Source of the DNA: Chthoniobacteraceae bacterium | GTDB taxonomy: Bacteria > Verrucomicrobiota > Verrucomicrobiia > Chthoniobacterales > Chthoniobacteraceae | Direction of reading: 5' to 3' | Length of the DNA: 60,674 nucleotides | Assembly: GCA_028293625.1 (NCBI GenBank) | Contig: JAQGOL010000038.1 | Coordinates: 1 to 60,674, forward strand | Shown: in pieces, positions 35,601-58,718 of the stretch | Layout of the letters: each line of letters starts with the position of its first letter | Position numbering within the stretch: the stretch's first letter is position 1 | The notes under the pieces: model-generated | Database searches by the model: none | What the model was told of the DNA's origin: nothing | Seen by the model: only the letters and a program-made list of their open reading frames with translations | Position numbers and translations under genes: made by a program

Positions 35601-38600
35601 GTAATCGATAATCCCGCGCCGGCTGCCACCGAGGTGATACCGCTTCCCGTCTGATTGCCGCCGCTCCAGGTAAAACCGCCGGTGATGGAGAGCGTCCCCG
35701 CACCGGTGAATGTGCCCGCACTTTGAAGGAAACTGGCGACGCTCGTATTGGAAGGGAGCGTGATCGTTAATGCACTGTTTAAGCTGGCTGAATCGGTCGC
35801 GCCGGGAACCCCATCGGGATTCCAATTGGCCGCCGTAAACCAGCTTGTATCCGTGCCGCCGCCCGCGTCCCAAACGTAGCTGCCCACTCCGCGCACGATC
35901 GAGAGCTTGGTCGCCTGGACGTTTTGCGAGAACCCGGCGGAAGCTCCGGTTAAAGACGAGAATGAACCGGTGTGCCCCGTGTAAGTGATCACATCGAACG
36001 AGTTGCCGATGGCCGGTACAAATCCGTTGATGAATGCAATGTCGAGCGTGCCGTCCAGGGTCGCATTGCCGCCCACGTTGAGCCGGTCATATTGCGTCGT
36101 TCCTCCAAGGTCGACCGCGAGTTTGCCGCCAGCTGTCTGGATATAATTGCCGCTGATATTGATCGTGCCGGGGTTTCCGGGGGCGATGCCGAGCAACGAG
36201 GGGATGGCTGCGGCGGGTCCGTTCGGTTGAATTGTCCCCCCTGTATTGGAAAGATTCCCGGTCACCGTGCCGGCGCCGGTCAATGTGCCGCCCTGAAAAG
36301 TCAGAGACGAACTTCCGCTGGCAAGGACGCCGCCCCTTAACTGAGTGGTGCCGGCCGTTTGCGTGAATTGTTGCCCAATCAAGGTGCCGGTCTGCAGCGA
36401 GACGGTGCCGCTATTGTTGAAGACCCCGGCCGCGGTAATGAACGAACCGCCACTCTTAATGAAAGTGCCGTCGTTGCTGAAGGCTCCGCCTGCGCTGGTG
36501 AGGATACTTCCATCTTTCTGGGCAAGAAACGTTCCCTCGTTTTTAAAGAGCGCCCCACTGTCGATGGAAATGCTGTTGGATCCCGTCCATGCCACCGTTT
36601 GCCCCGCCGGGTTGCGAAACACGCGGCCGTTTGTGAGGAACTCAGTGCCGCTGGTGGCTGCAAGGGTGGTGCCCGCGTTGGCATTGGTTGTGCCAGCGCC
36701 GGACATGGTGGTGTTATCGACCCACGTAAACGCGCTGTTGATGTCGAGCGTGGCGTTGCTGATAAATGCGCCGGCTGTGAAGGTAAACGACGGCACGCTG
36801 ACCGCGTTGTTCTCGAAATTCATCGATCCACCCGAGATCACGAGCGGATTGCTGGCCAGACTCGGGAGTGAAGCTTTGAAATCGGTGGTGCCCCCGGTGT
36901 GGCTCAACGTTTTGCCCGGTCCAATGAGACTTGTGACGGTCGCGCCGGCCAGGAAAGTCACGCTCTGCGCGGGTCCGAATGCGCTCGTGCCAGTAATATT
37001 ATAAGTCCCGCCAACAGATTGCACGCCGCTCGTAAATGAGACGTCGCCCGCACCGAAGATGCTGCCGGTGAATGTGCGGTTTGAGTCAAAGACCAGCTTG
37101 GTACCCGCCTGCACATTAAAAGTGCCCGATGTCGCCACGCTTTCCGGGCTGGTGATGCTCAGGAGCCCCGATTGCACGGCCAAACTCCCCGTGTTGTTGA
37201 ACCGGACCAAGGATGAATCAATAAAAGTCCCTGTGCCGGTGCTGTTCTTAATAAAACTGCCCGCGTTGTTGAATGTCGCGCTCGCCGTTCCAGTCCAGCC
37301 GATATGTTCGTCCACCGTGTCGAGGAATGAGCCGTCATTTTGGAATACGGCGCCGCTTCCAAGCGTGATGCGGCCGCCGCTCCAGGTCGCGGAACCGGCA
37401 TTCGATAAAGTGCGTCCTGAGAGGGTATGCGTTGCCGTTGTATCTATGGAAAGCGTGGCACTGCTTAACACAGTTGTTGATCCCGGACCGGTTTCCGTCC
37501 CGCCCGACCAATGGAAATTGCTGGTAATCGTCAGGCCGCCCGCGCCGGTAAGCGTGCCGTTGAGCTGATAAAAGACGCCCACCGTGGCGCTGCTGCCGAG
37601 GCTGAGCGTCGTCGAGTTGTTCAGGGTGGCCGAATCGCTCGCGCCCGGCACTCCAAATGGGAACCAGTTGGAGGGATCAAACCAATCGCTGCTCGTGGAA
37701 CCTTGCCAGGTAAAGTCGGTCACCAACTGGGCGAACTTTGAAAACTCCGAGCTGTTTCCGGCCGAGTCGGTCGCCGTGGCCGAAACGACGGCGCCCTGTG
37801 TCAGCGGGTTTGTCGTTGAATAATTAAAATTGAGGTTCCCGGAAGTGTCAGCCGTGACGGTTTGCGAGCCGACATAACTTTTGCCTTCTCCGTAACCGGA
37901 GGCATCGCCCGCCGGGGAGGAGAACAGATCAATCGTATAGGTTGCACCTGGCTGGCCATTAAGGGTGCCGGCGATGTTGGAAGAACTCGTGCGGAGCGCG
38001 GAGTTAATCACCGGGAAATTCTGGAGATTATTGGCGCCGGCATCCCCATCGCCGCTGTCATTCAGCGTGACTCCATTATTGCCAAGATCGATTCCGATGC
38101 CGGCATTCCCATAGATTGAGTTGGCCCGAATCGTATTGGCCCTCGCCTGGGTTCCAATCACCGAGATGCCTGTGCCGCCGTTAAATGCGATCGTGTTGCC
38201 ATCGCCCGAAACGGTGCCAATGACGTTCCCTGAAGAGTTCTGAATCACCACGCCTGAAAGGGTGTTGCCGAGCACTGCCGTCCCGGCCTGATCGGTGCCG
38301 ATTGCATTTTTAAGCAACTGATGCGCGTCGACATTGCCGGGGACCGTGTTGCTTAACACAATCCCATTGCCGTTGTTGCCCGAGATCACGTTCTCCCTGA
38401 TGAGACTTCCCGAGGTGGAGTTCTGGCTGAGGGCAATGCGCACTCCTTCCGTGTCATTGCCCAGATCCGCCGTGCCGGTTTTGTCCGTGCCAATGAAATT
38501 ATTGACAATGGATGTGTTGCTTGTGGCCGTGCCGGTGAGCTCCAGTCCAACCGCATTGCCTGAGAGGAGATTGCGATCGGCCGGCGCGCTTGTTCCAATC

Positions 38601-39226
38601 ACGTTACCGTTCCCGGCGTCTTTTAAAGCAATGCCCGCCTGCGCGTTGCCTTTGTCAATCAGGCCGGTTTGATCGACCCCGATCCAGTTGCCGCTGATCG
38701 TGTTATTTCCCAGGCCGCCATCCATAAGGATCCCGTTGCCGACGATCCCTGAGGTGCCCTGGAATCCCTGAATCACCAACCCCTTGAGCGTGTCATTCCC
38801 AAGGAGATGCAATCCGTTGGCCGGCCCGGCGAGTGATCCGTCGAGCACGATGTTCAACCGGGCGTTATTGCCAAAACCGAGCGTGTTGGCCGAGGAACCG
38901 CTCTGCGAATAACCGTCGATAAAAACATTTGCCGACACATCGGGCAGCGGAGTCGTGGGCTGGATGGTTTTCACCAGGCCAGCTCCCGGAATGGCGAACG
39001 TGATGGTATCCAGCAAAGTGGTCCCATTGGATGCCGCATCCAGGAGGACCTGCCGCAATGACCCCGGCCCGCTGTCCGCGGTCGTGGTAACGATCAAGCC
39101 CGTTGCGGGTGCGATCCGTTGTTCAAGTACTTCAACAAACGAGCGGCCCTGGCGTTTGGAAGCGGGTGTCGGTAGCAGCTTTTTAAAACGTTCGCTAATC
39201 GTTCGGGGGCGGCGTTCGGTATGCAT
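26675..39226 (-). CDS. Giant repeat surface protein (beta-helix, 185-aa repeats, DUF11, FG-GAP)
   Basis: Encodes 4,183 residues from ATG 39226 (a longer frame to 39334 has no plausible leader). An LEQRIAP motif at 34-40, recalling LEPR-XLL type N-termini, precedes a right-handed beta-helix (about 45-500) with NNTISGNWIGVDQTG-type turns. Three modules opening with W...NW.P.GVPGA.DSA start near 504, 1119 and 1887. Seven imperfect 185-residue repeats carry GNNAGTSGIL and SGGT motifs (about 1975-3115). Four DUF11 repeats (about 3340-3850) and five FG-GAP/VCBS repeats with calcium motifs such as DINGDGFDD end the protein. No PEP-CTERM or membrane anchor is seen. Likely exported adhesin or matrix protein; the export route is not shown. 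Confidence 0.9.
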   Translation of the reverse strand: MHTERRPRTISERFKKLLPTPASKRQGRSFVEVLEQRIAPATGLIVTTTADSGPGSLRQVLLDAASNGTTLLDTITFAIPGAGLVKTIQPTTPLPDVSANVFIDGYSQSGSSANTLGFGNNARLNIVLDGSLAGPANGLHLLGNDTLKGLVIQGFQGTSGIVGNGILMDGGLGNNTISGNWIGVDQTGLIDKGNAQAGIALKDAGNGNVIGTSAPADRNLLSGNAVGLELTGTATSNTSIVNNFIGTDKTGTADLGNDTEGVRIALSQNSTSGSLIRENVISGNNGNGIVLSNTVPGNVDAHQLLKNAIGTDQAGTAVLGNTLSGVVIQNSSGNVIGTVSGDGNTIAFNGGTGISVIGTQARANTIRANSIYGNAGIGIDLGNNGVTLNDSGDGDAGANNLQNFPVINSALRTSSSNIAGTLNGQPGATYTIDLFSSPAGDASGYGEGKSYVGSQTVTADTSGNLNFNYSTTNPLTQGAVVSATATDSAGNSSEFSKFAQLVTDFTWQGSTSSDWFDPSNWFPFGVPGASDSATLNNSTTLSLGSSATVGVFYQLNGTLTGAGGLTITSNFHWSGGTETGPGSTTVLSSATLSIDTTATHTLSGRTLSNAGSATWSGGRITLGSGAVFQNDGSFLDTVDEHIGWTGTASATFNNAGSFIKNSTGTGTFIDSSLVRFNNTGSLAVQSGLLSITSPESVATSGTFNVQAGTKLVFDSNRTFTGSIFGAGDVSFTSGVQSVGGTYNITGTSAFGPAQSVTFLAGATVTSLIGPGKTLSHTGGTTDFKASLPSLASNPLVISGGSMNFENNAVSVPSFTFTAGAFISNATLDINSAFTWVDNTTMSGAGTTNANAGTTLAATSGTEFLTNGRVFRNPAGQTVAWTGSNSISIDSGALFKNEGTFLAQKDGSILTSAGGAFSNDGTFIKSGGSFITAAGVFNNSGTVSLQTGTLIGQQFTQTAGTTQLRGGVLASGSSSLTFQGGTLTGAGTVTGNLSNTGGTIQPNGPAAAIPSLLGIAPGNPGTINISGNYIQTAGGKLAVDLGGTTQYDRLNVGGNATLDGTLDIAFINGFVPAIGNSFDVITYTGHTGSFSSLTGASAGFSQNVQATKLSIVRGVGSYVWDAGGGTDTSWFTAANWNPDGVPGATDSASLNSALTITLPSNTSVASFLQSAGTFTGAGTLSITGGFTWSGGNQTGSGITSVAAGAGLSITGGNKHLERRLDNSGNATWNSITPIDSGNGGIFNNFGTLDFQSDGGLTYDLGGTQTIFNNAGTFTKSNGSGTTAFFNVEFNNGGIVNANAGTLSFPGTGLSTGTFNVANTGTLSFGGSGLSQSLGAASQINSAGAVTFRFGTINLAGGFNSASTTIFANSIVNFDSAAATTETLTQSAGTLGGSGKLTITGNFDWSGGIQNGSGITAVDAGATFAITGANKQLERRIDNAGTATWNTTTVTDSGNGGIFNNIGTLNLLSDGGLTYDLGGTQTVFNNSGILTRSAGSGIFAFTAAAFNNSGTVNANTGTLSLGGGGLGTSLFNIAGILNFGGDGRTHNLSATSQISGSGTVNFDLGTASIAGAYNVGTTNILANSTVNFDGSDAGTGVLNQSTGTLGGTGMLTVTSSFAWTGGAQKGSGITKVAAGGTMTISGGSKTLERRIDNSGSVIWNSPSDISSGNGAIFNNFGSINLQGDGGIAYDRGGTVTTFNNSGTLSKSGGSGTTVFGGSFNNSGSINAKTGVLAMNGVFTQTAGATALTGGGISAVSPLLFTGGELIGSGTITGSVSNSAATVKPGGNAAAGLLTITGNYTQGSAGTLAVELGGGGALSDQLNVAGTATLDGTLNVALINGFLPLTGSAYNVLSYGSHSGTFPTLSGDTGFAQNYQASALSIVRSSLDYVWNGSISTDWFNASNWTPNGVPGAADNATISTASNAVNVSGQNAAIHDLNFSGNTLFGNARLDVGGTMTWTSGIIELNTSINSGALLNISGGANKLLRGNNAATSGILTIASGASAVWSGTGDLQFQNLATINNAGTFEARNNQSFSYISGGTPVFTNLGTFTKTNSGTTSIPAAVSFVNNGTLNTAAGAVVELGNFAITNDAKFTGPGITRAIGNVSIAGNIHLGANATLELQTGQLIGSGTFDGAGVFNWTGGEIRGQVSIAGGSMMLISGTADKRLNGNNAGTAGILTINSGASVLWKDSGDFQFQNLGIVNNSGTFNVANNEPLAFISGSTPLFNNLSGGLFIKTVAGTTTVDGSISFTNAGTVSTVSSATVDFANLTLTDGALFAGSGLSRVSTGTVKFGAGANVSIGAGSVFELTGGGTLSGTGKIGGAGNFNWSGGTIAAQLDIAAGSTMLITGAADKLLRGDNAGTSGNLNILPTAAVQWNGTGNVQLQNLAAINNSGHFSVQNSQSLAYVSGGEGRFNNAGVFVKSGSGTTIIGSSVRFVNSGMVAVSTAGALVNFALLDANAGGAFNGPGISRAIGTLNLSGTNTLTGGPVLELAGGTLNGTGTFAGSGQFNWSSGTILGNVAVATGSTLFLTSSGGKLLGGNNAGTSGILTISVGATVHWQDASDLQLQNLAMIDNRGTFEVANNQSILSISGSTPLFENHATGVFTKTTPGLTTVESSVTFHNEGTINAAAGATIDFQTLRLADGNKLTGPGLSRVASGSLVLEPGATTLGTNATLELTGSATLSGGGSVGGDGHLNWSGGTITGTLIVGAGSTLFITGSAPKLLNGNNAGTSGLIGIPSSSTVLWSGTGDIQLQNRAAIDNNGRFIAQNSQNVTYISGGEGHFNNHAGGTFIKAGAGTTTFGNTVRFVNEGEVNIATAGATIDFQLLDAADAGTFTGLGISRAIGTLALAGNTPLGAGATLELAGGTLTGSGTFAGQGNFNWSSGTVAGNVNVAAGSMMLITGAADKLLRGNNAGTSGILAVSPGGAIVWNGTGNLLTQNQAIINNAGLFNAQNSQSFSYLSGSEPLFNNLSGGTFTKSGIGTTSFGSNIRFINSGSVNVAIGGAAIDFQLLDTANGSAFTGPGLSRVLGTLAIAGTTTIGAGSMLELAGGTLTGTGTFAGTGNFNWSSGTITGVPTIGSGSSMLISGNGTKLLRGNNAGTSGILNISNGAGVVWATPGSITLQNLAIINNAGTFDSQNDHTFLYGGGSAPLFHNLATGTLLKSAGSGGTVFEGATKVDNAGTIEVRTGTLVFNSSLTQTAGITRLNGGNIATAGTILLQGGILGGTGTVVGNISNAATVAPGNNGAGILTVTGNYAQTSAGTLAVELGGTAAGTEHDQLNVAGTTTLAGALSVAYTGGFIPGTGDQFRVIASTSNPGIFPTAPANVAQTPSATGLTISIITPSQPDLSLTQDDGVTVTMPGSILSYTLGYKNDGPLPASGVQLTEILPDGTTFNAAASTAGWTETTPGIYKLFIGTLASGATGTAIFATAVNSPAASGLTQITATASIAGAGGADLTPANNSATDSDTLNATPDLVLSKSDGATETTPGSLLSYTLNYHNDGTRDATGVTLTETLPAGTTFNATASSQGWVETAPGIFKLNVGALAAGGTGGTATFAVNVVSTAPAGLDTISGTALIADDNSNGTDLNPANNTGTDSDLLNAAPDLVLTHADGVTATTPGSLLTYNLAYHNDGHQDATGVVLTETLPAGTSFNANASDSGWIEATPGVFTFAIGNLAAGTIGGTVKFAVNVKSPAAAGLDQIEATVAIADDASNGADLTPGNNTAADSNTLDAAPDLQVSIADDPAVAKRGGITHYTLTYGNRGNQDAAGVFLLEQLPANSTFVPLESSSGWTETTPGSGLYQLAIGNLSAGATAGSATFSVRLASNLPVGYLGLTPSVSVDDDHANGADLNSLNNSAVKTTPIYQGVYIVAPGVGTPRGATPIVRVFDISTGAQTLAFSAYEESYRGGVRIAAGDINGDGFDDIITSTRLGSGRIRVFDGVTGVQFSEVFGEINAFVGRAAHGAFVSSGDVTGDGRDDIIVGSGRGGGIVQIYDGQTGSLVNSYTPFGKGFKGGVRVAIGDVDGNGIDDVVVSQGDSGSRVQVYSGATTTILQDFKAAPKSYRSGIFVAAADIDGDGKADIIAGRDIHSAAIVESFSGIDHHSISRIVAFGNSYRNGVRVAATDVNFDGIADIIATSGTKGGSQVKIFDGKTSNELPGFSAFPNFPDVSLFAAATTRAPSVS
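29870..33300 (-). repeat. Seven tandem coding repeats of about 555 bp
   Basis: Within the giant gene, the core phrase encoding W(S/T)SGT and the following motif recurs at 30021, 30576, 31131, 31692, 32241 and about 32804, i.e. at 555, 555, 561, 549 and 564 bp. The encoded GNNAGTSGIL motif occurs seven times. Identity is moderate, so the array has diverged since duplication. Confidence 0.85.
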
Positions 39227-39493
39227 GAGGTGGTGGTTTACGAGCAGCGATGCGATCCGGATGAAAGGGATCGTCAAATTTACGGGCACTATTGTGTCCA
39301 CAAAAATGTCCCGAAGTGTGCGCGCGAAGCGCATCCGGAATCAATCCTCGTCTTGCCTGTTTACCACGATCCGTTGGCAATCAGATGTCATCGCCAACCA
39401 ATCCGCCACCACGGCATTGATTTGATCCGCCCATTCTGCGCCTTGGAATCCAAAAAGGGAATCGCTCCATTTACCCAAGCTTTTGTCCAATCA

Positions 39494-46418: not shown

Positions 46419-49400
46419 TCAAAGCCGGAGCCATGCTTCGCGGCTTGGTCCGCGAAAACGGCGCAGGCCGAGGAGCAGCAGGCCAGCCGGGAGCAGCGCG
46501 ATGGTCCCCGGCTCGGGAATAATACTTACGCTAAGGTCCACGCCGCCTACCCCGTCGTAGCTGAAGGTGCCGGTGACTCCGGCAGTCGTGATGAGCCACG
46601 AGCCGATGCTCTCCAGCCCGGTCTCCGATCCGCTCAGGCCGCTTATCACGTCGTTGTAGGTCGTGTTTGAGGCACCGGAAATAATCGTGAAGTCGAAAGC
46701 CTGGTTGTTATCGAAGGCCCACGTGCCGCCGGTGCGTGTCAGGCTGGAATGGGTGCCATCGGCGCCAAGGGTTAGTCTGATGATGGCGCCGTCGATGAAC
46801 GAGATCGCGCCGCCGGAAGTAAGCGTGCCGGAGGCTACTGTGCCCATTCCTCCTTGCAAGATGGTTCCGCTGCCGACAGTCACGTCACGCACCGCTCCGG
46901 TCCCCCCAAGGGTGCTTCCGGCATTGCTCACCGTTGCCGCGCTGGAAGAGATGGAGCCGCTGACGAGCAATGTGCCGGCGGTCACCGTCGTTGGCCCGGT
47001 GTAAATGTTCGCACCGGAGAGAGTCACCGTTCCTGCGGTGGTCTTGTTCAACGCAATCCCAAAGCCCGCGAGGATCGCGCTCACCGAGCCGCTCTGCATC
47101 TCGAAAGTGCGGCCGGGGTTTGCGCCGAGCACGGAGGTGCCACTTCCCGTGATGCTGCCGCCACCCTGCAGGGTGACTGTGCCGACCGTGTCGCTGTGGT
47201 TGGAACCGAGGTTGAAGATGGCCGTCACCCCGTTCACCGTCAGATTGCTCGTATTGGCGATCGCCCCGGTGGCTCCTTCCGCCAAGGTACCCGCCATGAC
47301 CGTCGTCGGCCCGGTGTACATGTTCACACCGGAGAGGGTTACTGTTCCTTCCGTCGTTTTGTTTAACGCAATCCCAGCGCCCGCGAGAATCGCGCTCACC
47401 GAGCCGCTCTGCATCTCGAAGGTTTGGCCGGTGTTCGCCATCAGCATGGAGGCGCCACTTCCCGTGATGCGGCCGCCACCCTGCAGGGTGACTGTGCCGA
47501 CCGTGTCGCTGTGGTTGGAACCGAGATTGAAGATGGCCGTCGCCCCGTTCACCGTCAGATTGCTCGTATTGGCAATCGCGCCGGTGGCTCCTTCCGCCAA
47601 GGTACCCGCCATGACCGCCGTCTCTCCGGTGTAAGTGTTCGCACCGGAAAGGGTGAGGGTGCCACTCCCTGACTTCGATACGCCACCAGGACCGCCGCCG
47701 ATGACACCGGAGATCGTGGTGTTGCCCGTGCCGCTGACGTTTAGTTGATTCGCGCCATTGGTCACGTTGCTTGCAACACTCAGAAGGCCACTCGTGGAAT
47801 CATTGGTCCACATCTGGGATGCACCGAGTATGATGTTGGAATTGATCGTCAGAGTCCGGGCACCGCTGGAGAGGGTAATGCCTGTGGTCGGGCTGCTCGG
47901 AGCAATGGTCAGCGAAAAGCCGTCCGAGTTGAGGCCCACGGCATTCACGCTGTCCTGCTGCGTGAGACTGCGGATCGTCATGTCCGCGCCCAGCGTTGAG
48001 CTGGCCGGCGAAGTCATCACGGCGGAATTGGAGAAAATTACGCTGGCCCCAACACCGGGCACGATTCCTTGGGACGCTCCGCCCGAGGCAGCCACCCAGT
48101 TGCTCTGAGTGCTCCCATTGGAGGCGGCCCACACCGTCGTCGCTCCAGGGAGCCCTCCGGTCCAGTAGGCTGTCGTCAAAGGGGAGATCCCGCTGGTCAA
48201 TGAAACCGCGATATCGGTGGCGGTGACCGTGGGAGTTCCGACGGTATAATCCGTGTTGTTGATGACTTTGAGGGTGTAGGTCGCGCCATTGAGGCTGCTG
48301 CCCGTGCCGCCATGGATCAAGGTGTAAGTATTCACGCCTCCGGGCAGGATGGCCCCGGGCGCCGCCGACATATTGAGTCGGACAGCGCCCGTGGCAGTCG
48401 CTGCGCCGGTCACCGCAATCTTCGCGCTGGTTGCGCTGGCGCCGATCACCCAACCCATCGCCCCGCCACTGACACTTAAAGCCGCTCCGATGGTAAGGGG
48501 CTCGTCTGAGGTGGGTACATAGGTCAAGGCGCCGTTTGCGAGCACCGTCACATTACCGGTCCCCAGGGCACTGCCATGGCGCGCGCTCAAGGTTCCGCCA
48601 TTCACCGTGGTCCCGCCGCTGTAGGTGTTGGCGCCGGCGAGCACCAACATGTTCGTTCCCGCTTTGGCCAAGGCGTTGGCCGTCGTGCCATTGCTGATTA
48701 CCCCACTCAAAGTTAGAGCGCTGCCACTGCCGCTAATCGTGCGAGTCGTCCCAGGGAGCGTTCCCAGCGAAACCGCTCCCGTCCCCAGGTTTATTGGATT
48801 ACTACCGCTCAATGCAAAGTCTCCGTTGATTTCCACGGCGTTCGCGTTGGCGTTCGCGAAACTGGTGAGGCTGCTGAGCGCGCCACCGAAAATCGTTAGC
48901 GGCCCGGCACCGAGCGCGGTGTTGCTATCCAACTCCAGCGTCCCAGCGTTGAGCACGACCCCGCCGCTGAAGCTGTTCGTACCCGACAGCGCCAGCGTCG
49001 AGGCGCCGGACTTGACCAACGTCAAGGCACCGAGGTGATCCTGGATCGGTGCGCTCAGACTGATCGAGTTACTGCCGGCGATGACGTAAAGGTTAGTCGG
49101 CGAGGTCCCCGGCTGCCGGATGACACCCGAGGCGCTGCTAATTGTCAGCACACCAGAACCGCCATTGAGGATGCCGAAGGTCTCCAAATTGTTGGTCCCC
49201 AAGGCCAGGGTGTCGGTTCCCCCTGTGTAACGCAGACTGTTGGGTGAGCGGGTCCCCGTCAGCGTGGCCCTGCCGCTTAGCGTGTAGCTGTTGTCCGCCA
49301 CCGTCCACGTGTTCTCCTCGGAAGCGGCGATCCGCGCAGGCAGAATCCGGCCCGCGGCGTCATACAGCGCGTAATCCGTCGGGCCGCCCGTGCTGGGGCC

Positions 49401-52400
49401 GGTGGTGGCCCATGGCGCGATGATTTGCCCTGCCGCCGTCTGAACCGCATTTGGCACCTGAATGAGATTAGTCGTCGTGTCCAGGTCCGAGGGAGAAGTG
49501 AAAGAGACCGTGGCTGCGTTCGCCTGACTCAGCCCGCTGATGATCAGGGTTTGCCTGTTTCCGCCGTCGGCCATGCTGGAGACCAGGTTGACATTCGTCT
49601 GGCCATTCACCAGCGCCAGGGTGCCAACGGTCTCGGCATAAACGACGCCACTTCTCGCGAGATTGCTGTAGTTGAAGGCGCCGCCGTTGGAGGTAATAAG
49701 GGCGCTGTCCCCGAGACGATTGACGCCACCTTCCGAGGCGCCGTTCGAGAGCGTCAAACGGCCGTTATTGGAGAGGAAGATGGCCCTCGAACCGTTGATC
49801 GCCCCGGTCAGGCTCGCGCCAATCGTCACTGCGCCGCCATCAATCGTAGTTGCGCCGGTATAGGTATTCGCCCCGGTCAGAGTGAGGGTGCCGCCACCTC
49901 TCTTCGTGAGACCGCCGGCGCCACCACCGATCGCGCCGCTGATCGTGGTGTTCCCGGTCCCGTCGATAGTGAGCAGGTTCGTCCCATTGGATATCTGGCC
50001 GCCGACGAGGAATTTGACAAAGAAATCAGCGTCGGTGTTGTTCGTCCACGTCTGCGCCGCGCCGAGCACCATATCGGAGTTGATCGTGACTCCCCCGGTG
50101 CCGCTCATGATATTGATGCCGTTCGCGGGACTGGCGGGGGTAATCGTCAGGGTAAATCCGTCCACGCCGAGATTCACACTGCTCGACGAATCCTGCTGGG
50201 TGAGGCTGCGGATTGTCATATCCGCGCCCAGCATCGAGGCGCTGGGTGAACTCGTGACGGCGGAATTGGAGAAAATAAGGTCGGTCGTCACGCCGGGCAC
50301 AAGGCCCTGGTTCGCTCCGCCGGAGTTCGCCACCCAGTTGCTTTGACTACTCCCATTGGAGGCAGCCCAGGAGGACGGCGCCTCGCTCAGCCCGCCCTTC
50401 CAATAGGCGGTGGTCAGAGGAGTCAGCCCACCCGTCACCGAAACGGTGAGGTCCGTGGTCGTGGCCGTGGGCGTGCCGACGGTGAAGTCGGTATTGTTCA
50501 AAACCAGTCCCAGAGAATAGGTCGCGCCGTTGAGGCTGCTGCCCGGTCCGCCATGAACCAGCGTATAAGAATTCGTGCCCGCCTGCGGCGTCGCACCGGG
50601 CACGGCGAACAGATTGAGCTTTACGGGACCGGTCGCGGTCGCCGCGTCCTTCACCGCAATCCGCGCGCTGGTCACCGTGGAACCAATCGCGCCGCCCAAG
50701 GCAGTGAATGCCCCGCCGGTGATGCTCAATGAGCCGCCGAGGATCAGCGGCGTGTCGGCCCTGGCCGCATAATTCAAGGCGGCGTCCTTGTGCACCGTCA
50801 CGCGGCCGGTGCCAAGGCCGCTCCCATGTCGGACTGTCAAAACCGATCCCGAAAAGTAGTAGCCGTCGATGGTGGTCCCGCCGCTGAAACTGTTTGCCCC
50901 CGTGAGCATCAGCGTCCCAGCCCCCTTCTTAACCAGGGCACTGGCGGTCGTTCCATCGCTGATCACTCCCCCCATAGTCAACAGGTCATTCCGGGTGCCG
51001 AAGTCGATGACAGTAGTCCCACCGATGGTGCCCAGCGTTACCGGGCCCGTCCCCAAGTCGATGGGACCACTATTGAAAAAATCGATGCCGAAATCCCCGT
51101 AAATGTTTATCGCGTTGGCGTTGGCGTTGGCGAACCTCGTGTTGGTGCCGAGCAAGCCACCGAAAATTGTGAACGGCCCACTTCCCAGCGCCGTGTTGCC
51201 GTTCAACTCCAGCGTCCCGGCATTGAGGACAAGACCACCGCTAAACGTGTTCAGGCCCGAGAGCTCCAGCGACGAGCCACCGGATTTAACCAAGGTCAAT
51301 GCCCCGCCGTGGTCCTGAATCGGGGCATTGATCGTGCCCCCACTGACGTACAGATTGGCTGGTTGGCTGCCCGGTTGCCGCACGACGCCCGAGGAAGCGG
51401 TAATCGTCAGAAAAGCACCGCCATTGAGGATCCCGAAGGTTTCCAGGTTGTTCGATCCCAAGGCCAGCGTTCCGGCTCCGGTAAATCGAAGGGTGTTGAG
51501 CGTGCGCGTTGCCGTCAGCGCGGTCCCGGAAGCGAGAGTCACATTCGCCCCCGGCATCCAATTATCCTCTGTCGAACCGGCAATTCCAGCCGGTAGAATC
51601 CGGCCCGCCCCGTCATAAATCGCGTAATCCGTCTGCGTGTTACCCCGGGCAGTCGTGGCCCATGGTCCGATGATTTGCCCCGCCGCCGTCTGAGCCGCGC
51701 CCGTCACTTTGATGATATTGGTCGTCGTGTTGACTCCCACGTTGGCTGCGGTGAAGGTGACGGTGGCCGCGTTGGTTTGGCTCAGGCCGCTGAGGGTCAG
51801 TGTCTGCACGCTTCCACGTCCAACGTTCATATCCTCGACTAATTGAACCATTGTCTGACCATTGGCGGCAGTCACCGTTCCAATCGTCTCGGCATATACC
51901 GTTGGGCCGGGAAAGTCACTGTTGTCGTAGTTGAAGATTCCGCCGTTGGAGATGATCGGGATGCCATCGCCAAGCCGGTCGCGCTCCATGTAGTACGCAG
52001 AAGAGTTGTCCAAGGTCAGGACGGCATTGTTATTGAGGACAACGCCCGACGAGGCTCTGACCGAACCTTGTCCGCCGGAGTAATGGATGGACACGGACCC
52101 GCCATTGAGCGTTGTCACGCCGGTGTAGCTGTTTTCCCCCGCCAGCGTGAGCTCTCCGGCACCGCTCTTGCTCAGGCCACCGGCACCGCTGATTGCTCCG
52201 TTGATCCTGACCGTGTCGCCACCGACCGTCAGCAGGTGTCCACCATTATCCACATCGCCTTTGACGGTGAAGCCGAAACCCGAGTTGCTCCACATCTGCG
52301 CCGCACCCATCAAGATGTTGGGTTCAATCGTCAAGCTACCGCCATTGGCGATCGTGATGCCGGCGGTGGCGCTGGTCGGGGTGATTGTCAACGTATGACC

Positions 52401-55400
52401 GTCATCGTTGTCAAGGAACACACTTGCACCCTGCATGGTGATGCTTCGCAGGGACATATCCGCACCCAGCGTCGATGAACTGGAGTTGAAAGCAGTAAAG
52501 ATGACGTCAGTCGTGGCGCCGGGCGCCAGGGGCTGGCTTGCTCCGCCCTTTGTCGCCGCCCAATTGCTTTGGGTGCTCCCGTTGGAGGCAGCCCATACGC
52601 TTATCGCTCCAGGGAGTCCCCCCGTCCAATAGGCGGTGCTCAAAGGAGTTACCCCACCGGTCACCGAAACGGTGAGATCCGTGGCCGTGACCGTGGGGGT
52701 ACTGACGGTGAAGTTGGTGTTGTTCACGACGAGGCCCATGGAATAGATCGCACCGTTGAGGCTGCTTCCCGCACCCCCATGAACCAGCGTGTAAGTATTC
52801 GTACCCGCCAGCGGCGTGACACCGGGTACCGCGAAGACATTGAGTTTCACGGTTCCCGTGGCGGTCGCCGCGCCTGTCACCGCGATCTGTGCACTGGTAG
52901 CCACGGAACCGATCGCGCCTCCCAAAGCCGTAAATGCCCCGCCGGTAACAACCAAATTCCCGCCGATAACCAGCGGCACATCCGTCGTGGCTTCGTAATT
53001 CAGGATGCCGTTAGCGATCACCGTCACGCTGCCCAGACCCAAGGCGCTGCCGCTGCGTGCAATCAAGGTCCCGGGATCACCGAAGGTGCCGCCATTCATC
53101 GTGGTTCCGCCGGTATAAGTATTGGCCCCGGAGAGCACCAGTGTGCCACTGCCCGCTTTGGAGATCGCGTTGGCCGTGGTCCCATTGCTGATCACCCCGC
53201 CCAGTGTGAGACGCTTGGAATTGATGGTAATCGTCCGCGTCGTCCCAACCGCAGTGCCTAGCGAAATCGCGCCGGTTCCCAGGTTCATCAGCGTATAGCC
53301 GTTGCAGGTGAAATCTCCATTGAAGATCACCTCGTTGTGGTTGGCGTTCACGAAATTCGTATCCGTATCGAGCACGCCACCATAAATTGTCAGGGGGCCC
53401 GTGCCCATCGCGGTCTTGCTGTTCAGCGTCAGCGTCCCAGCATTAAGCACAATGCCTCCGGTAAAGCTGTTTGGACCCGATAGCGTTAGCGTGGAGGCCC
53501 CAGCCTTTACCAGGGTCAGGGCTCCGCCGTGATCCTGGATTGGGGCGCTGATGTCGATGGAGAAGCTGGTGCCGGTGGTGACATAGAGATTGGCGGCCGC
53601 AGTGCCCGGTTGGCGCACGACGCCCGAGGAGCTGTTGATCTTCAAGCCACCGCCGAGGATCCCGAAAGTCTCGAGGTTATTGGCCCCCATGGCCAGTATG
53701 CCGCTCAACCCCGTATAGCGAAGGCTGTTCAACGTGCGCGTTGCCGTCAACGTGCCCGAGTCACTCAGGGTGACATTGGTTGCCGGCACCCATGTCGGTT
53801 CCGGAGAGGCCGCGATCCCAGCGGGCAGGATCTTGCCGGCGGCGTCGTACGTGGCGTAATCCACCACACCAAATGTCCTCGTGTCGGAACTGGTGGTGGC
53901 CCATGGACCGATAATTTGCCCCGCTGGCGTTGGTGGGGCACCCGCTACCTGAATGACGTCGGTCGCCGCGTTTGGTCCCACCTGCGCCACCGCGAAATTA
54001 ACCGTGGCCGCGTTCGCCTGATTGAGCCCTCCGAACGTCAGCCTCTGGGTATTGCTGCCGCCCAACATGTTGTTTAGCAGGTTCACATTCGTCTGGCCAT
54101 TATTGATGGCCAGTGTTCCCGCGGCTTCGGTATAAGACAGTGAGGCGCCAGGGTCATTGCTGTAGATGAAGTTTCCTCCATTGGAAGCGATAGAGGCGTC
54201 GTCTCCGATGCGATTAAAACTCCCATCGGGAGACCCATTCAACAGCATTAATGTAGCGTTGTTGTTGAGGGTAATGCTTGTTGAGGCTCTGATTGAGCCC
54301 GTCCCAAAAATCATCACATCACCATCGTTGATCGTCGTCGCGCCAGTGTACGTATTCGCGCCCGAGAGCCTCAAATTGGTGGCGCTCATGGTCAGGCCTC
54401 CGGAGCCGCCGCCGATTGCTCCGGAAATCGTGATGAACCTGCCCGCAAGCGTCAGCAGGTTCGCGCCATTGTCTACCCTGCCGTTGACCGTCAAGTAGCC
54501 AGAAGAGGAGAAGTTTGCCCATGTCTGGGCTGCGCCAAGCACGACACTGGAATTGATCGTGAGATCCCCGGTACGGCTGACCATCGTTATACCCGCCGTC
54601 GGGCTGCCCGGGGTGATGGTCAGCGAAAAGCCGTCGGCGTTTAAACTCACGGGATTGGCGGTATCCTGCTGGGTCAGGCTGCGGATCGTCATATCCGCCC
54701 CCAGCCTCGAGCTGGCCGGCGAAGTCGTGACCGTGGTATTGGAGAAAATCACATCGGTTTCGGCGCCGGGAATCAGTGCCTGGTTCGCTCCTCCCGGGGT
54801 CGCCACCCAATTGCTCTGGGTGCTCCCATTGGAGGCGGCCCACGTGGACGGGGCTCCGCTCAGGCCGCCTTTCCAATAGGCGGTGGAAAGGGCGGTCGCG
54901 CTCAGGTCGGTAGCCGCGGCCGCGGGGCTGCCAACGCCGATGGCAGTGGCCCCGCCGTCGGGCACCGCGATCCGCGCACTCATCGCCGTGGAGCGGATCG
55001 CGCCGTCCAAATTCGTCCCCGCTCCGCCCGTCAGACTGAACGCGCCACCGATGACCAGCGGTGTGTCCGCGCCGGCCGGATAATTGAAGGCCGTGTTTGC
55101 TCCTATCGTCACGCTGCCGCTGACCAGCTCACTACCGCTAAGCAGCCTCAAGGGTCTGCCTGTCACCGTGGTTTTACCGTTATCAGTATCCCCTTGGAGT
55201 TGCAACGGGTCGCAGATGATCTCAACTGCATTGGTTGCCGTCAACGTGTTCAGAATCTCAATGCTGCCTCTGCCGCCGCCGCTGCTCACCTTGAGCGCAT
55301 TACCACCGGTGGCGGCGACGAAGTAGAGTCCTTCCGTAATCGTGAAGTTGATCCCGAAGATGTTGCTGTTGGCATCAATCCCAATCGGATTGCCCGCTAC

Positions 55401-55658
55401 ATTGCCCCAGGCATTGACCCCGAACGCATTAAAGATGGCTACCTCGGGGCTGGTCGTGCCGCTGGTATTGCCAGGGGCGGCGGAGTCGCCGACCCAATTG
55501 GCCAAGACAGACCACAAACCACTAGTCACCCAAGCGCCATCCCACGTCAGAGTAGCCGCGCGCGAGGGGAGCGCGGTGACTACCAGCGCTCCGATCGAGC
55601 CGGCGAGAATGATGCCCTTCGTGCAACGCATCTTTGGGAGTTTGCGGAAGATTTTCAT
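46419..55658 (-). CDS. Giant PEP-CTERM protein of autotransporter-associated beta-strand repeats
   Basis: Encodes 3,079 residues from ATG 55658; the longer frame to 55850 lacks a leader. Signal peptide about 1-34 (GALVVTALPSRA). The body has at least twelve TIGR02601-type motifs such as GTLTLSGANTYTGATTI, and four large units of 742-749 residues each with TAYWKGGLSGAPS and DMTIRSLTQQD. The C-terminus (about 3045-3079) is a PEP-CTERM sorting signal: PEPGTIALLPAGLLLLGLRRFRG. No transporter beta-barrel is present, so despite the repeat name it is not an autotransporter. It is expected to be exported and processed by an exosortase system, not encoded in this window, and may build an extracellular matrix. 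Confidence 0.93.
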   Translation of the reverse strand: MKIFRKLPKMRCTKGIILAGSIGALVVTALPSRAATLTWDGAWVTSGLWSVLANWVGDSAAPGNTSGTTSPEVAIFNAFGVNAWGNVAGNPIGIDANSNIFGINFTITEGLYFVAATGGNALKVSSGGGRGSIEILNTLTATNAVEIICDPLQLQGDTDNGKTTVTGRPLRLLSGSELVSGSVTIGANTAFNYPAGADTPLVIGGAFSLTGGAGTNLDGAIRSTAMSARIAVPDGGATAIGVGSPAAAATDLSATALSTAYWKGGLSGAPSTWAASNGSTQSNWVATPGGANQALIPGAETDVIFSNTTVTTSPASSRLGADMTIRSLTQQDTANPVSLNADGFSLTITPGSPTAGITMVSRTGDLTINSSVVLGAAQTWANFSSSGYLTVNGRVDNGANLLTLAGRFITISGAIGGGSGGLTMSATNLRLSGANTYTGATTINDGDVMIFGTGSIRASTSITLNNNATLMLLNGSPDGSFNRIGDDASIASNGGNFIYSNDPGASLSYTEAAGTLAINNGQTNVNLLNNMLGGSNTQRLTFGGLNQANAATVNFAVAQVGPNAATDVIQVAGAPPTPAGQIIGPWATTSSDTRTFGVVDYATYDAAGKILPAGIAASPEPTWVPATNVTLSDSGTLTATRTLNSLRYTGLSGILAMGANNLETFGILGGGLKINSSSGVVRQPGTAAANLYVTTGTSFSIDISAPIQDHGGALTLVKAGASTLTLSGPNSFTGGIVLNAGTLTLNSKTAMGTGPLTIYGGVLDTDTNFVNANHNEVIFNGDFTCNGYTLMNLGTGAISLGTAVGTTRTITINSKRLTLGGVISNGTTANAISKAGSGTLVLSGANTYTGGTTMNGGTFGDPGTLIARSGSALGLGSVTVIANGILNYEATTDVPLVIGGNLVVTGGAFTALGGAIGSVATSAQIAVTGAATATGTVKLNVFAVPGVTPLAGTNTYTLVHGGAGSSLNGAIYSMGLVVNNTNFTVSTPTVTATDLTVSVTGGVTPLSTAYWTGGLPGAISVWAASNGSTQSNWAATKGGASQPLAPGATTDVIFTAFNSSSSTLGADMSLRSITMQGASVFLDNDDGHTLTITPTSATAGITIANGGSLTIEPNILMGAAQMWSNSGFGFTVKGDVDNGGHLLTVGGDTVRINGAISGAGGLSKSGAGELTLAGENSYTGVTTLNGGSVSIHYSGGQGSVRASSGVVLNNNAVLTLDNSSAYYMERDRLGDGIPIISNGGIFNYDNSDFPGPTVYAETIGTVTAANGQTMVQLVEDMNVGRGSVQTLTLSGLSQTNAATVTFTAANVGVNTTTNIIKVTGAAQTAAGQIIGPWATTARGNTQTDYAIYDGAGRILPAGIAGSTEDNWMPGANVTLASGTALTATRTLNTLRFTGAGTLALGSNNLETFGILNGGAFLTITASSGVVRQPGSQPANLYVSGGTINAPIQDHGGALTLVKSGGSSLELSGLNTFSGGLVLNAGTLELNGNTALGSGPFTIFGGLLGTNTRFANANANAINIYGDFGIDFFNSGPIDLGTGPVTLGTIGGTTVIDFGTRNDLLTMGGVISDGTTASALVKKGAGTLMLTGANSFSGGTTIDGYYFSGSVLTVRHGSGLGTGRVTVHKDAALNYAARADTPLILGGSLSITGGAFTALGGAIGSTVTSARIAVKDAATATGPVKLNLFAVPGATPQAGTNSYTLVHGGPGSSLNGATYSLGLVLNNTDFTVGTPTATTTDLTVSVTGGLTPLTTAYWKGGLSEAPSSWAASNGSSQSNWVANSGGANQGLVPGVTTDLIFSNSAVTSSPSASMLGADMTIRSLTQQDSSSSVNLGVDGFTLTITPASPANGINIMSGTGGVTINSDMVLGAAQTWTNNTDADFFVKFLVGGQISNGTNLLTIDGTGNTTISGAIGGGAGGLTKRGGGTLTLTGANTYTGATTIDGGAVTIGASLTGAINGSRAIFLSNNGRLTLSNGASEGGVNRLGDSALITSNGGAFNYSNLARSGVVYAETVGTLALVNGQTNVNLVSSMADGGNRQTLIISGLSQANAATVSFTSPSDLDTTTNLIQVPNAVQTAAGQIIAPWATTGPSTGGPTDYALYDAAGRILPARIAASEENTWTVADNSYTLSGRATLTGTRSPNSLRYTGGTDTLALGTNNLETFGILNGGSGVLTISSASGVIRQPGTSPTNLYVIAGSNSISLSAPIQDHLGALTLVKSGASTLALSGTNSFSGGVVLNAGTLELDSNTALGAGPLTIFGGALSSLTSFANANANAVEINGDFALSGSNPINLGTGAVSLGTLPGTTRTISGSGSALTLSGVISNGTTANALAKAGTNMLVLAGANTYSGGTTVNGGTLSARHGSALGTGNVTVLANGALTYVPTSDEPLTIGAALSVSGGAMGWVIGASATSAKIAVTGAATATGAVRLNMSAAPGAILPGGVNTYTLIHGGTGSSLNGATYTLKVINNTDYTVGTPTVTATDIAVSLTSGISPLTTAYWTGGLPGATTVWAASNGSTQSNWVAASGGASQGIVPGVGASVIFSNSAVMTSPASSTLGADMTIRSLTQQDSVNAVGLNSDGFSLTIAPSSPTTGITLSSGARTLTINSNIILGASQMWTNDSTSGLLSVASNVTNGANQLNVSGTGNTTISGVIGGGPGGVSKSGSGTLTLSGANTYTGETAVMAGTLAEGATGAIANTSNLTVNGATAIFNLGSNHSDTVGTVTLQGGGRITGSGASMLMANTGQTFEMQSGSVSAILAGAGIALNKTTEGTVTLSGVNMYTGPTTVMAGTLAEGATGAIANTSNLTVNGVTAIFNLGSNHSDTVGTVTLQGGGSITGSGTSVLGANPGRTFEMQSGSVSAILAGFGIALNKTTAGTVTLSGANIYTGPTTVTAGTLLVSGSISSSAATVSNAGSTLGGTGAVRDVTVGSGTILQGGMGTVASGTLTSGGAISFIDGAIIRLTLGADGTHSSLTRTGGTWAFDNNQAFDFTIISGASNTTYNDVISGLSGSETGLESIGSWLITTAGVTGTFSYDGVGGVDLSVSIIPEPGTIALLPAGLLLLGLRRFRGPSREAWLRL
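46981..47612 (-). repeat. Near-identical 315-bp tandem duplication
   Basis: Two copies of a 105-codon unit with the landmark TCACCGAGCC at 47081 and 47396 (exactly 315 bp apart). They differ at only scattered positions, so the duplication is recent or homogenised. They encode two consecutive beta-strand repeats near the C-terminus of the PEP-CTERM protein. Confidence 0.9.
48162..54873 (-). repeat. Four large coding repeats of about 2.24 kb
   Basis: The landmark CCAATAGG/CCAGTAGG (coding for AYW(K/T)GG) recurs at 54873, 52626, 50400 and 48162: spacings 2247, 2226 and 2238 bp, all multiples of three. The units share long stretches but are clearly diverged. A partial unit precedes the first copy. 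Confidence 0.9.
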
Positions 55659-55899
55659 CACAAATTCTTCAGGAGGTCGCTCACAGCACCATTTCCGTTT
55701 TTTTGTTGGTAGCGTAACTTTTTCATTCAAGGCTTCATCAAGCCTCGCGCCGGGAAACGCCGATGACGACGCAAAAAGAGTCGATTGCTCCCGGCATCCT
55801 GCCGCCGAGTCAATCGGCCGGCGATCGCGATGCACTTGGTTCCGCACCATGCGCTCAATGCTTCTGCCTTAATCATTAACAAAAGACGTCCAAGGGCAG
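55659..55899. other. Leader and promoter region of the PEP-CTERM gene
   Basis: About 240 bp upstream of the giant gene and downstream of the decayed nuclease gene. AGGCTT and AAGCCT form a short inverted repeat near 55730-55745 on the minus strand. No clear promoter boxes or Shine-Dalgarno sequence are visible. Confidence 0.4.
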
Positions 55900-56674
55900 C
55901 TAATCTGTGGGCTTCGCTGCTGCGGTTGACTCGAGAGCCACCTGTTGCCCTTTCACCCGTCTCGCGATGATTTTATAAGATCCGCCGGGGATTCGGATAT
56001 AGTTGTTTTGCCGAGACCCGCGGTGGACCCGGCATCGTAAATCGGGCTATCAAAACAGACGACTCCGTCGTATCGCCTGGCGTAGTCGTTGGCTTCGATT
56101 CTTTCGAGTGCTTCCCAGATGCCGCGGTTAAGCTCAGGCTCCTGCGGAACGATGTTCGACGTGTAAAACGTCTCAATCTGCGCCTCCCGGCCATAGCTCA
56201 CGCTCACGGCCCAGTTGGGCGCCATGTGGCCACGATCGTAGCCGATCCGTGTGTATTCGTTCGTGGCAACCTGGTAAGCCACGGGCAACGCAGGATCTGG
56301 CATGAAGGTATCAGGTCTTTTGGCGCTGACGGGATTGGTCACTGACTTGATGGCGTATGCGCCCAGGCCGGGCTGAACGCTTTGGTCGAATATCTGACCG
56401 TGTGCCCGGTGTGCGTGATCTTGATCAGCTTTTCCCGCGCCGAGACAGGCAGACCTGGCCAGTACGTTTCGCGCGAATCGTTCGGAACCGTTTCGCCGCC
56501 CTTGGTCCGGGTTGAGCGTGTGCCTTTCGACGCCGACGGCGATTTCGCCTTTTCGTGAAAGACTGGGATCAGCTCACGGATTGCCGGCGGGAGCTTTTCG
56601 CGGATAGCGGACGCACCTGCCACGAGGCAAGCGACCAGGGCGACAATGCCAAGGGATCGAGGAAATGACTTTAT
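55900..56674 (-). pseudogene. DNA/RNA non-specific endonuclease (NUC1), frameshifted remnant
   Basis: Three frames together restore a secreted beta-beta-alpha metal nuclease. The leader reads KSFPRSLGIVALVACLVAG from an ATA codon at 56672-56674, where ATG is expected. Around 56345-56355 one base is missing: restoring a G turns AFSPAWAHT into AFSPAWAAYAIKSV and joins the two halves. The catalytic DRGHMAPN and the metal-ligand region NIVPQEPELN are intact. Around 56006-56010 a second base is missing in an A-run; restoring it gives GKNNYIRIPGGSYKIIARRV and runs to a TAG at 55900. The total length becomes divisible by three after both repairs. Sequencing error is the main alternative. Confidence 0.75.
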
Positions 56675-56819: not shown

Positions 56820-56874
56820 GCTCAACAACCACTTTCATTCCGAATTGCGCCGGAACGAAACTTCAGGGTTAGGC
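56820..56874 (-). repeat. attC-like site, cassette 8 (short)
   Basis: GCTCAAC at 56820-56826 and GTTAGGC at 56868-56874. Inner arms ACTTTCATTCCG and CGGAACGAAACTT pair with an 8-base loop. At 55 bp it is close to the smallest attC sites known. The TAA stop of the zinc-ribbon ORF lies inside the GTTAGGC core (complement of 56869-56871). Confidence 0.7.
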
Positions 56875-57108
56875 CGATTTTTGTTCACAGTGTTTGCGGA
56901 TAAAAGTGGCGAGTTTGTCTGGCGGTGTCGAACTCCAAACCAGCCCGCAATCCAAACAAGCAAATCCCTCCTCTGCCAACTGAGGCCCTTGGCCGAGCGT
57001 GAGGAAGCGAAGTCCCCGCGGGCGAAAGACAGCAGACTGCTGGCTGTCCCAACTGACGATGCGCCCTTTCGTCACGTTCTGACTCTTGCACTTTAAGCAC
57101 TCAGGCAT
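56869..57108 (-). CDS. Cassette-borne small zinc-ribbon-like protein
   Basis: Encodes 79 residues from ATG 57108; the frame continues to 57228 only by crossing the intron-like fragment. CLKCKSQNV near the N-terminus and CLDCGLVW in the middle form a CxxC...CxxC zinc-ribbon pair. Tail DKLATFIRKHCEQKSA. Otherwise unknown. Its stop is provided by the attC core, typical of a compact cassette. Confidence 0.7.
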   Translation of the reverse strand: MPECLKCKSQNVTKGRIVSWDSQQSAVFRPRGLRFLTLGQGPQLAEEGFACLDCGLVWSSTPPDKLATFIRKHCEQKSA

Positions 57109-57119
57109 ACAAAGCGGCC

Positions 57120-57195
57120 ATAGAGGTAGAACTGCCGGTTGCCCGACAGCCCTTTTGCAGATCCCGGCGTGCCGATTTCCCGCACCGGGCTGCTC
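57120..57195 (-). ncRNA. Group II intron 3' end (domain V-VI) fragment, putative
   Basis: Minus strand from 57195: GAGCAGCCCGGTGCGGGAAA begins a domain V-like hairpin: catalytic AGC, CCCGG/CCGGG stem, a two-base CG bulge in GCACG, TGC/GCA stem and a GAAA-containing loop, with one stem mismatch. It is followed by CTGTCGG-GCAA-CCGGCAG, a perfect 7-bp hairpin fitting domain VI, and TTCTACCTCTAT, a plausible intron 3' end at 57120. No reverse transcriptase or 5' intron part remains. It sits at a cassette boundary where an attC site would be expected. Confidence 0.5.
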
Positions 57196-57264
57196 TGTAT
57201 GTCCGGTGGTGTGGAGCCGGGAGTTCAAACTTCTCGGCGACCCGATTCGGCGTTGCGGATATTG

Positions 57265-57669
57265 TCATAGGACCTCGGGCGTGGAAGCAGTGAAGCCGCC
57301 CGGTTGGAGAGCGACAAGGTGAAAGCTAAAGTCGTCCAGGGCTGCACGAACACGAAGTGATGCTTCACAGCCGATAACCTCGATGCCTGAGTACGGAGGC
57401 TGGGCAGAAGACTCGCCGTGATGCAGGTTAACGGTGTCGAGAATCGAGAGAAAGTTGTCCTCGGGCGTGTCGATGGAGCCCGGCTGAAAAGTCGTGATGC
57501 CAGCAAGATGGGTGCTGGTGCGGCGCTCCGCCCAAAGGCGCTGCGCGACGGGACTGTTGATCGGACTCTGAACGATCCACACTGGCTCGTCTGTGGGAAG
57601 GCTGATCAAACGATCACCGAAGGATGGATCGACTATGATTCGGACTCGATATGGAGAGCTCTCGTTCAT
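57265..57669 (-). CDS. Cassette-borne hypothetical protein
   Basis: Encodes 134 residues. Begins YRVRIIVDPSFGDRLISLP and contains EPVWIVQSPIN, AERRTSTHLAGITTF, LDTVNLHHGE and SGIEVIGC; this combination is seen in a family of short proteins from soil and clinical bacteria, often in cassettes, of unknown function. ATG start 2 codons into the previous cassette's attC side. Instead of a clear attC, a group II intron-like 3' fragment follows its TGA stop. Confidence 0.75.
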   Translation of the reverse strand: MNESSPYRVRIIVDPSFGDRLISLPTDEPVWIVQSPINSPVAQRLWAERRTSTHLAGITTFQPGSIDTPEDNFLSILDTVNLHHGESSAQPPYSGIEVIGCEASLRVRAALDDFSFHLVALQPGGFTASTPEVL

Positions 57670-57686: not shown

Positions 57687-57790
57687 GCCTAACGTCCTTG
57701 AGGTAAGCGAACGGAATGAGCCGCTGAAGGCTTCGAGTAGAGAAGATGTTACGCCGGCTCATGAAGGTTCGCTTGACCGAATTGTTAAGC
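57687..57790 (-). repeat. attC-like site, cassette 6
   Basis: GCCTAAC at 57687-57693 and GTTAAGC at 57784-57790. Arms AGGTAAGCGAACGGAATGAG and CGGCTCATGAAGGTTCGCTT pair with a few extra-helical bases; a variable 30-base terminal loop lies between them. It follows directly the stop of the frameshifted cassette gene. Confidence 0.85.
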
Positions 57791-58215: not shown

Positions 58216-58346
58216 GCTTAACGACCGAAGCGCTGGCCCCGCTGGGGCGGCACTGCGCGTCGAGAGCAGGGTTGATGTTTGGATTAGAGAAAATCATGGC
58301 AGAAAGTAGAGAGCCCCAGCGGTTGTCCAGCCGAGCATTGTTAGGC
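58216..58346 (-). repeat. attC-like site, cassette 5
   Basis: GCTTAAC at 58216-58222 and GTTAGGC at 58340-58346. Arms GCTGGCCCCGCTGGGGC and GCCCCAGCGGTTGTCCAGC pair with a short bulge; a 65-base variable region lies between them. The TAA of the ankyrin ORF falls within the core. Confidence 0.85.
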
Positions 58347-58718
58347 CACACGCGCTTGAATTGCCGTGATGATCTCGGCGATTCCGCGGCGGGTAGCAGA
58401 CTCCAAGGGCGTTTCACCCCAGCCACTCATTGTCTCGATGCGAGCACCGCGATCCAAGAGAAGGCGCACCATGGCAACGTCGTCAAACATGATGGCGTAG
58501 TGGAGTGGCGTGAAGCTTTCCTCTCCGCTCTTGTCGATATCCGCACCTGCCTCAAGCATGTCACACACAATTTCAAAATCCCCGCGCCTCACTGCAACGT
58601 GCAGCGGCGTGTCACCACAGCCGTTTTCGGAACGCACCGTAATTGGTGGTGTAAGGTAACCAAAACTAGGGTGATCCTCCATTTCCAAAAGGTATTCTTG
58701 CAGTCGATCGGCATTCAT
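58341..58718 (-). CDS. Cassette-borne ankyrin repeat protein
   Basis: Encodes 125 residues with about three ankyrin repeats: GDTPLHVAVRRGDFEIVCDML, FTPLHYAIMFDDVAMVRLLL (continuing DRGA) and GETPLESATRRGIAEIITAI. The first 30 residues form a helical lead. Ankyrin proteins bind other proteins; the partner is unknown. The stop is encoded by the attC core GCCTAAC. Confidence 0.9.
   Translation of the reverse strand: MNADRLQEYLLEMEDHPSFGYLTPPITVRSENGCGDTPLHVAVRRGDFEIVCDMLEAGADIDKSGEESFTPLHYAIMFDDVAMVRLLLDRGARIETMSGWGETPLESATRRGIAEIITAIQARVA

Follow-up and report, generated by a model that had tools for sequence, protein, structure and literature searches.

Tails of two different group II introns stand in place of an attC site between two integron cassettes of a Chthoniobacteraceae bacterium

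Two outward-pointing tails of different group II introns stand in place of the attC site between two neighbouring gene cassettes of a Chthoniobacteraceae bacterium (Table 1). The window, i.e. the whole stretch of DNA that was analysed (60,674 nucleotides), is an entire contig (C36) of a genome of 6.83 Mb in 43 contigs that is 96.4% complete. A minus-strand cassette array, consisting of short ORFs with attC sites between them, fills its final 3.9 kb up to the contig end, and the integron integrase of the genome is encoded on another contig (C29:571-1509; TIGR02249, 434 bits at a cut-off of 265, which none of 14 control genomes exceeded). The ORF upstream of the boundary matched no Pfam or NCBIfam family, and the downstream one is zinc-ribbon-like, below the cut-off (Pfam E 0.0087). 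Another cassette ORF (58341-58718, minus strand) carries ankyrin repeats (Pfam Ank_2, E 4.8e-26). Elsewhere on the minus strand of the window, a 3143-aa ORF (46419-55850) has 12 passenger-associated-transport repeats and, by eye, a PEP-CTERM-like end, and two ORFs that share four bases (55953-56342, with a DNA/RNA non-specific endonuclease domain, and 56339-56623) are possibly one gene split between frames.

Table 1. Features at the boundary between the two cassettes (positions in the window)
Feature	Position	Strand	Basis or detail
Sense intron tail, D5-D6 and 3' end CTCTAT at 57120; AGC/GGGATC-type group II intron	57120..57194	-	R3; RF00029
Domain V (D5) of sense tail	57160..57192	-	alignments to family consensus
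Domain VI (D6) of sense tail	57123..57156	-	alignments, covariation, R3
Antisense intron tail, D5 3' strand and D6, IIC-type (CGC, GGTGGTGTGG..CCCGATT), 3' end at 57247	57203..57247	+	R2
GCCG, putative outer part of R''-like box (GCCG/AAC), flanking antisense tail	57248..57251	-	sequence
GGC, putative outer part of R' box (GTT..GGC), flanking sense tail	57117..57119	-	8/13 sense tails of this genome then GG
Upstream cassette ORF	57265..57669	-	134 aa
Downstream cassette ORF	56869..57108	-	79 aa from ATG at 57108
Canonical attC of downstream cassette	56820..56874	-	GCCTAAC ... GTTGAGC
Canonical attC before upstream cassette	57687..57790	-	GCTTAAC ... GTTAGGC

The initial annotation had placed a group IIC intron remnant at 57120-57195, with a D5-like hairpin (AGC triad, two-base bulge, GAAA loop), a perfect 7-bp D6-like hairpin and a CTCTAT end. 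The D5 hairpin is indeed present, on the minus strand between the stop codon of the upstream ORF and the start codon of the downstream one, and shows the AGC triad, a U.G pair, a two-base AC bulge and a GAAA-type loop. The 7-bp hairpin of D6 and the CTCTAT end also stand; the hairpin is not perfect, one of its pairs being a T.G wobble, and G.U pairs extend the helix to 10 bp below a GCAA loop, with a TA bulge that holds the branch-point-like A at 57127. The window copy is decayed. Two D5 pairs are broken relative to the family consensus (C.C at the base, G.G in the upper stem), and the basal GAGG/CCTC helix of D6 is gone (AAAA), with the 10-bp helix and its loop retained. A further D5 pair, next to the triad, is G.A; since it is nonstandard in all 16 sequences of the alignment used for model R3 (see below), it is a trait of the lineage rather than a sign of decay. 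A terminator role for the D6 hairpin was set aside because no T-run follows it in the sequence.

The comparison with Rfam proposed in the initial annotation gave a match of RF00029 that covers the full model and the whole sense tail, at 19.8 bits under a gathering score of 40 (E 0.34 for 1.1 kb searched against 4227 Rfam families). At the gathering threshold the window gave no match to any Rfam family, D1-D4 models included. Therefore, we built our own covariance model (R3), for which 16 D5-D6 copies were taken from other genomes and none from this one. In a search of the whole window, R3 matched 57115-57194 on the minus strand with 65.0 bits (E 2.5e-12), far above chance; the runner-up matches had E-values of 0.0064 and 0.039, the former a marginal match (34419-34497, plus strand) inside a 4219-aa ORF (26675-39334, minus strand). 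Among the 16 R3 rows, 94.7% of the pair cells are standard pairs and ten pairs have changed on both sides (9 of 14 in D6, 1 of 13 in D5), giving a covariation score that tops 500 of 500 shuffles and every slid version of the alignment. The RNA fold of 57115-57205 reaches a z-score of -3.45 against 200 shuffles. In genome and viral contig collections, no match came up for exact pieces of 24 and 22 bases from the D6 region. The pair of hairpins is thus the decayed D5-D6 end of a group II intron. Its 5' domains and reverse transcriptase (RT) are lost, as had been suggested: D1-D4 and the RT of a complete mobile element are both missing from the tail, and RVT_1 found no match in the whole genome.

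The initial annotation was right about the coordinates of this tail and missed that the feature is larger. A second tail adjoins it on the other strand, reading CCGGTGGTGTGGAGCC..GGCGACCCGATT and then CGGC, the complement of GCCG; its 5' exon is lost, and only the 3' strand of its D5 is left. Tails of this type also end introns with a full GAACCGCC..GGTGGT D5 in L195, L212 and L236. A model of the introns from these three loci (R2), which is not fully independent because its members were picked via a motif first seen in the window, matched the window over 57175-57252 (29.6 bits, E 7.5e-6), the part before 57203 being a forced fit across the sense D5. A second copy of the antisense tail, at C35:748-816, scored 37.5 bits (E 4e-8); these E-values are for 349 kb and correspond to 1.5e-4 and 7.8e-7 for the whole genome. 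R2 also matches introns of genomes G023, G006 and G018, which were not picked by that motif, and the G018 RT is IIC-like. The antisense tail is compatible with the known IIC-attC kind, on the bottom strand and putatively at the R'' side.

Between the two ORFs no canonical attC is present, and the initial annotation was right to place the remnant at a boundary that lacks the preceding cassette's attC. Neither the AAC of R'' nor the GTT of R', both part of the boxes of a functional attC, was found adjoining the tails (57116-57251). With both absent, the integrase should be unable to cut there and recombination at this boundary should be lost; judging from the sequence, the two cassettes are probably fused and would move, if at all, as one unit. 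For the window tail itself, whose 5' exon is gone, entry through an attC is suggested only by the GGC and GCCG beside the tails, which speak for R' and R''. The copies closest to it in D5-D6, from G016 and G006, are followed by A, not GG.

The assignment of the sense tail to group IIC was not supported. The CGC triad in D5 goes with group IIC, whereas AGC is found in the window copy and in all 16 rows of alignment A4. Moreover, the RT of an intact relative (L196) shows no preference for IIC, with 135.7 bits against LtrA, 128.8 against the IIC-type RT 7uim, 120 against 6me0 and 106.7 against GsI-IIC, whereas the RT of a CGC-triad intron from the same bacterial family (L159) scores 408.5 bits against GsI-IIC and 116 against LtrA. 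A tree of 29 RTs has a branch, with support 99/97, that separates the ten AGC/GGGATC rows from the three CGC rows. Two AAC-type rows, two unlabelled ones and one of GGTT type share the side of the AGC/GGGATC rows, which form no clade of their own, and several long branches make placements unsure. We therefore describe the sense tail as belonging to an AGC-triad, non-IIC lineage and leave its finer class unnamed.

Relatives of the sense tail were sought with model R1, which includes the window copy. Matches were obtained in 15 of 40 genomes of the family at E 0.001 and in 22 of 387 genomes of the phylum at E 1e-8, this genome being counted in both. Among the 25 R1 matches listed, seven have an RT-like ORF of 262-491 aa that ends 12-103 nt before D5, and six of these ORFs were long enough for, and matched in, the RT comparison; L183 has an ORF at D5, but its D5 is of GGTT type, and the remaining listed matches have no such ORF or reach a contig edge. 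Seven contigs were fetched to obtain full introns; six of them matched RF02005 (group-II-D1D4-6), five over the gathering score and the sixth (L193) at 47.5 against 49. G016 has 12 R1 matches but just two partial RVT_1 matches. The copy on contig C32 of the genome studied here retains 64 residues of the RT C-terminus, which are 51% identical to the intact RT of L195 over 63 residues and 45% identical to that of L196 over 62; the IIC-type RT of L159 shows no similarity to them. This remnant matched no Pfam or NCBIfam family and at E 1e-6 was found in this genome only among 213 genomes of the order. A tblastn search with the relatives' RT ORFs against solo copies revealed no matching upstream RT for the copies of this genome. 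Around one solo copy, 1179 of 1179 bases are identical between two genera (G016:C133 and G003:C97; L121, L125), a sign either of recent transfer or of a contaminated bin.

Intact members of the lineage often sit in the top strand of attC sites, in cassette orientation, right after the GTT of R'. This insertion mode, unlike that of classic IIC-attC introns, had been missed. A 26-base pattern for the intron 5' end yielded 34 copies in 20 genomes, 33 of them titled Verrucomicrobiota and one labelled Acidobacteriia. The 5' flank ends in GTT or GTT plus one base in 31 of the 34; 22 flanks end in CGTT (one extra base allowed), nine in TGTT and three in neither. Intron-free homologues exist for 11 of the 34 flanks, these 11 coming from five genomes. 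Among their 30 matches at the loci examined, 21 carry CGTT exactly at the insertion point, and 8 of the 11 flanks have at least one such match; beyond this point the 21 enter an apparent next cassette (e.g. CGTT/CTGCGGAGAAGAATGA). In L205 and L214 the intron lies just before where GTT would be. An R''-like motif (RYYYAAC) is present in 8 of 34 flanks compared with 2 of 61 control windows. However, the TGTT flanks are not enriched for it (2 of 9 versus 1 of 16 controls) and three of the 34 flanks lack GTT, therefore attC is not the sole target, and the TGTT group may have others.

Complementarity of R'' and R' on the joined flanks is weak (7 of 7 in just one of 11), which would follow if the 3' half of R' came with the next cassette. 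The last 30 nt pair with upstream sequence more strongly than 95% of single-base shuffles in 20 of the 34 flanks, but not in the other 14. A TIGR02249 integrase above the cut-off was found in 10 of the 20 genomes versus none of the 14 controls, which are not a phylum background. Both intron ends are present for 11 of the 13 D5-D6 ends in these loci; five introns measure 2030-2219 nt, two others 3086 and 1313, and four 403-688, too short for an RT. These four (L223, L235, L203 and L225, with 403, 472, 485 and 688 nt) are ORF-less introns in attC-like sites.

The single remnant pictured at first is one of 13 sense-type tails in this genome, 12 recognised by a D6 scan and one (C32:10590) by its D5. 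Ten of the 13 share stretches with matches to attC left halves, C32:10590 lies about 1.1 kb from one, and two further tails on C32 have no demonstrated array setting; GG follows directly in eight. A whole-genome R3 search, in which a first-look filter passed 150 of 4428 candidates for scoring, listed only six matches at E up to 1, two of them at 0.5-0.7 and one of another intron type; therefore, the evidence for nine of the 12 other sense tails is their BLAST similarity to the window combined with the mismatch scan. The D6 mismatch scan gave 12 matches in nine stretches of the genome chosen by similarity and none in 13 other stretches (154 kb); when the chosen stretches went through 20 rounds of single-base shuffling, three matches arose. 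The match of another type (C24:233776-233874, minus strand; L038:19343-19441) is an AGC/GGTT-type group II tail that reaches 47.2 bits with RF00029 and lies about 560 bp from the contig end. At C35:742-801, an antisense tail of the window type is fused straight to the D6 loop of a shortened D6. Since the gene after this tail also follows the tail at C17:2674, some copies have spread by duplication of larger blocks.

We consider it likely that two introns of different lineages entered this boundary as 5'-truncated retro-insertions and that deletion of the attC middle joined the cassettes. An AGC-triad, non-IIC Verrucomicrobiota intron would have entered the top strand of the attC after the GTT of R', in gene orientation, and an IIC-type intron the bottom strand at R''. 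cDNA synthesis starting in the 3' exon would have stopped short and so produced 5'-truncated copies, one with D5-D6 and the other with D6 and the 3' strand of D5, and a subsequent deletion would have removed the attC middle, leaving the tails back to back with their 3' ends outward. We propose this order of events as the most likely one. Incomplete reverse transcription is the most likely cause of the truncation: the sequence shared by the copies stops sharply at the 3' end, with varied 5' extents, the pattern to be expected when synthesis begins in the 3' exon and is not completed.

Deletion after full-length insertion would give identical anatomy. Full-length introns might have come first, with ordinary deletions via short repeats such as GCCGGRAT, common to attC and D5, sparing the 3' ends. 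Five sense tails, and a sixth by eye, join an attC left half to the 3' strand of D5 at this very joint, where an ordinary attC right half reads GCCGGAAT, and the direct fusion of the antisense tail to a D6 loop at C35:742-801 points the same way. However, such deletions leave unexplained why 13 of 13 sense tails keep the 3' end and no 5'-end-only copy turned up in the searches for D5-D6 ends, and we regard this course of events as unlikely. It is far less probable still that the composites of attC half and tail continue to work or spread as recombination sites, the tail being a domesticated attC arm. Composites stand between different genes in five places, the attC left half matching with 0-1 mismatches in four of the five, and the TTA..GGC at the tail end could pair with the GCCTAA of R''. 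Yet the G-TT cleavage triplet of R' is absent, both boxes are cut in the window, and 57100-57270, as DNA, folds no better than its shuffles (z 0.14); differing neighbours are also expected from repeated insertion or from recombination between repeats. Finally, chance hairpins or an unrelated repeat resembling D5-D6, as the sub-threshold Rfam score might suggest, are refuted by the R3 E-value as well as by the RT-bearing intact relatives and the covariation, and have practically no likelihood left.

Group IIC-attC introns, i.e. S.ma.I2 and relatives, are described as inserting into the bottom strand (TTGT/T at R''), against the orientation of the cassettes (PMC7923331). The antisense tail is compatible with them, and the sense lineage resembles them in entering attC beside the conserved GTT, but differs in its AGC triad, non-IIC RT and top-strand position at R'. 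A non-IIC (IIB) intron, UHB.I2, has been described just after an attC in cassette orientation (Sonbol and Siam 2021, PMC7923331). By that description it ends in UUGCG..GU and has poorly conserved exons, whereas the lineage studied here has GTGCG..AAT and sits repeatedly after GTT. Truncated group II introns linked to integrons are likewise in print (PMC7923331, PMC8876359, PMC4424553), among them UHB.F1 in a cassette array (PMC7923331). H.ha.F1 and H.ha.F2 are, like the tails described here, 5'-truncated copies (IIB) within a cluster of cassettes, and for them, too, incomplete reverse transcription has been proposed (PMC7923331). Fused cassettes in which the attC between two ORFs is partly or wholly lost have also been published (PMC4670013, PMC8876359); in the window, two intron tails replace the attC. 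A review gives homing as the target choice of all lineages except class C (PMC4424553), a rule that a non-IIC lineage repeatedly using attC would qualify.

In the literature searched, outside which most subscription papers lie, we came across neither repeated entry into attC at R' by a non-IIC lineage nor an attC replaced by paired opposite tails. The shuffling of integron arrays is attributed to the integrase; less is clear about how cassettes come to be fixed or fused. We hold the chances to be even that attC targeting arose a second time, in a non-IIC, AGC-triad lineage of Verrucomicrobiota, which together with IIC-attC introns erases attC sites from both sides and fixes multi-gene units. 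The lineage offers many natural pairs of empty and filled sites for tests of target choice. Here, the recombination sites themselves seem to be eliminated by mobile introns, whose 3' ends persist as recognisable scars.
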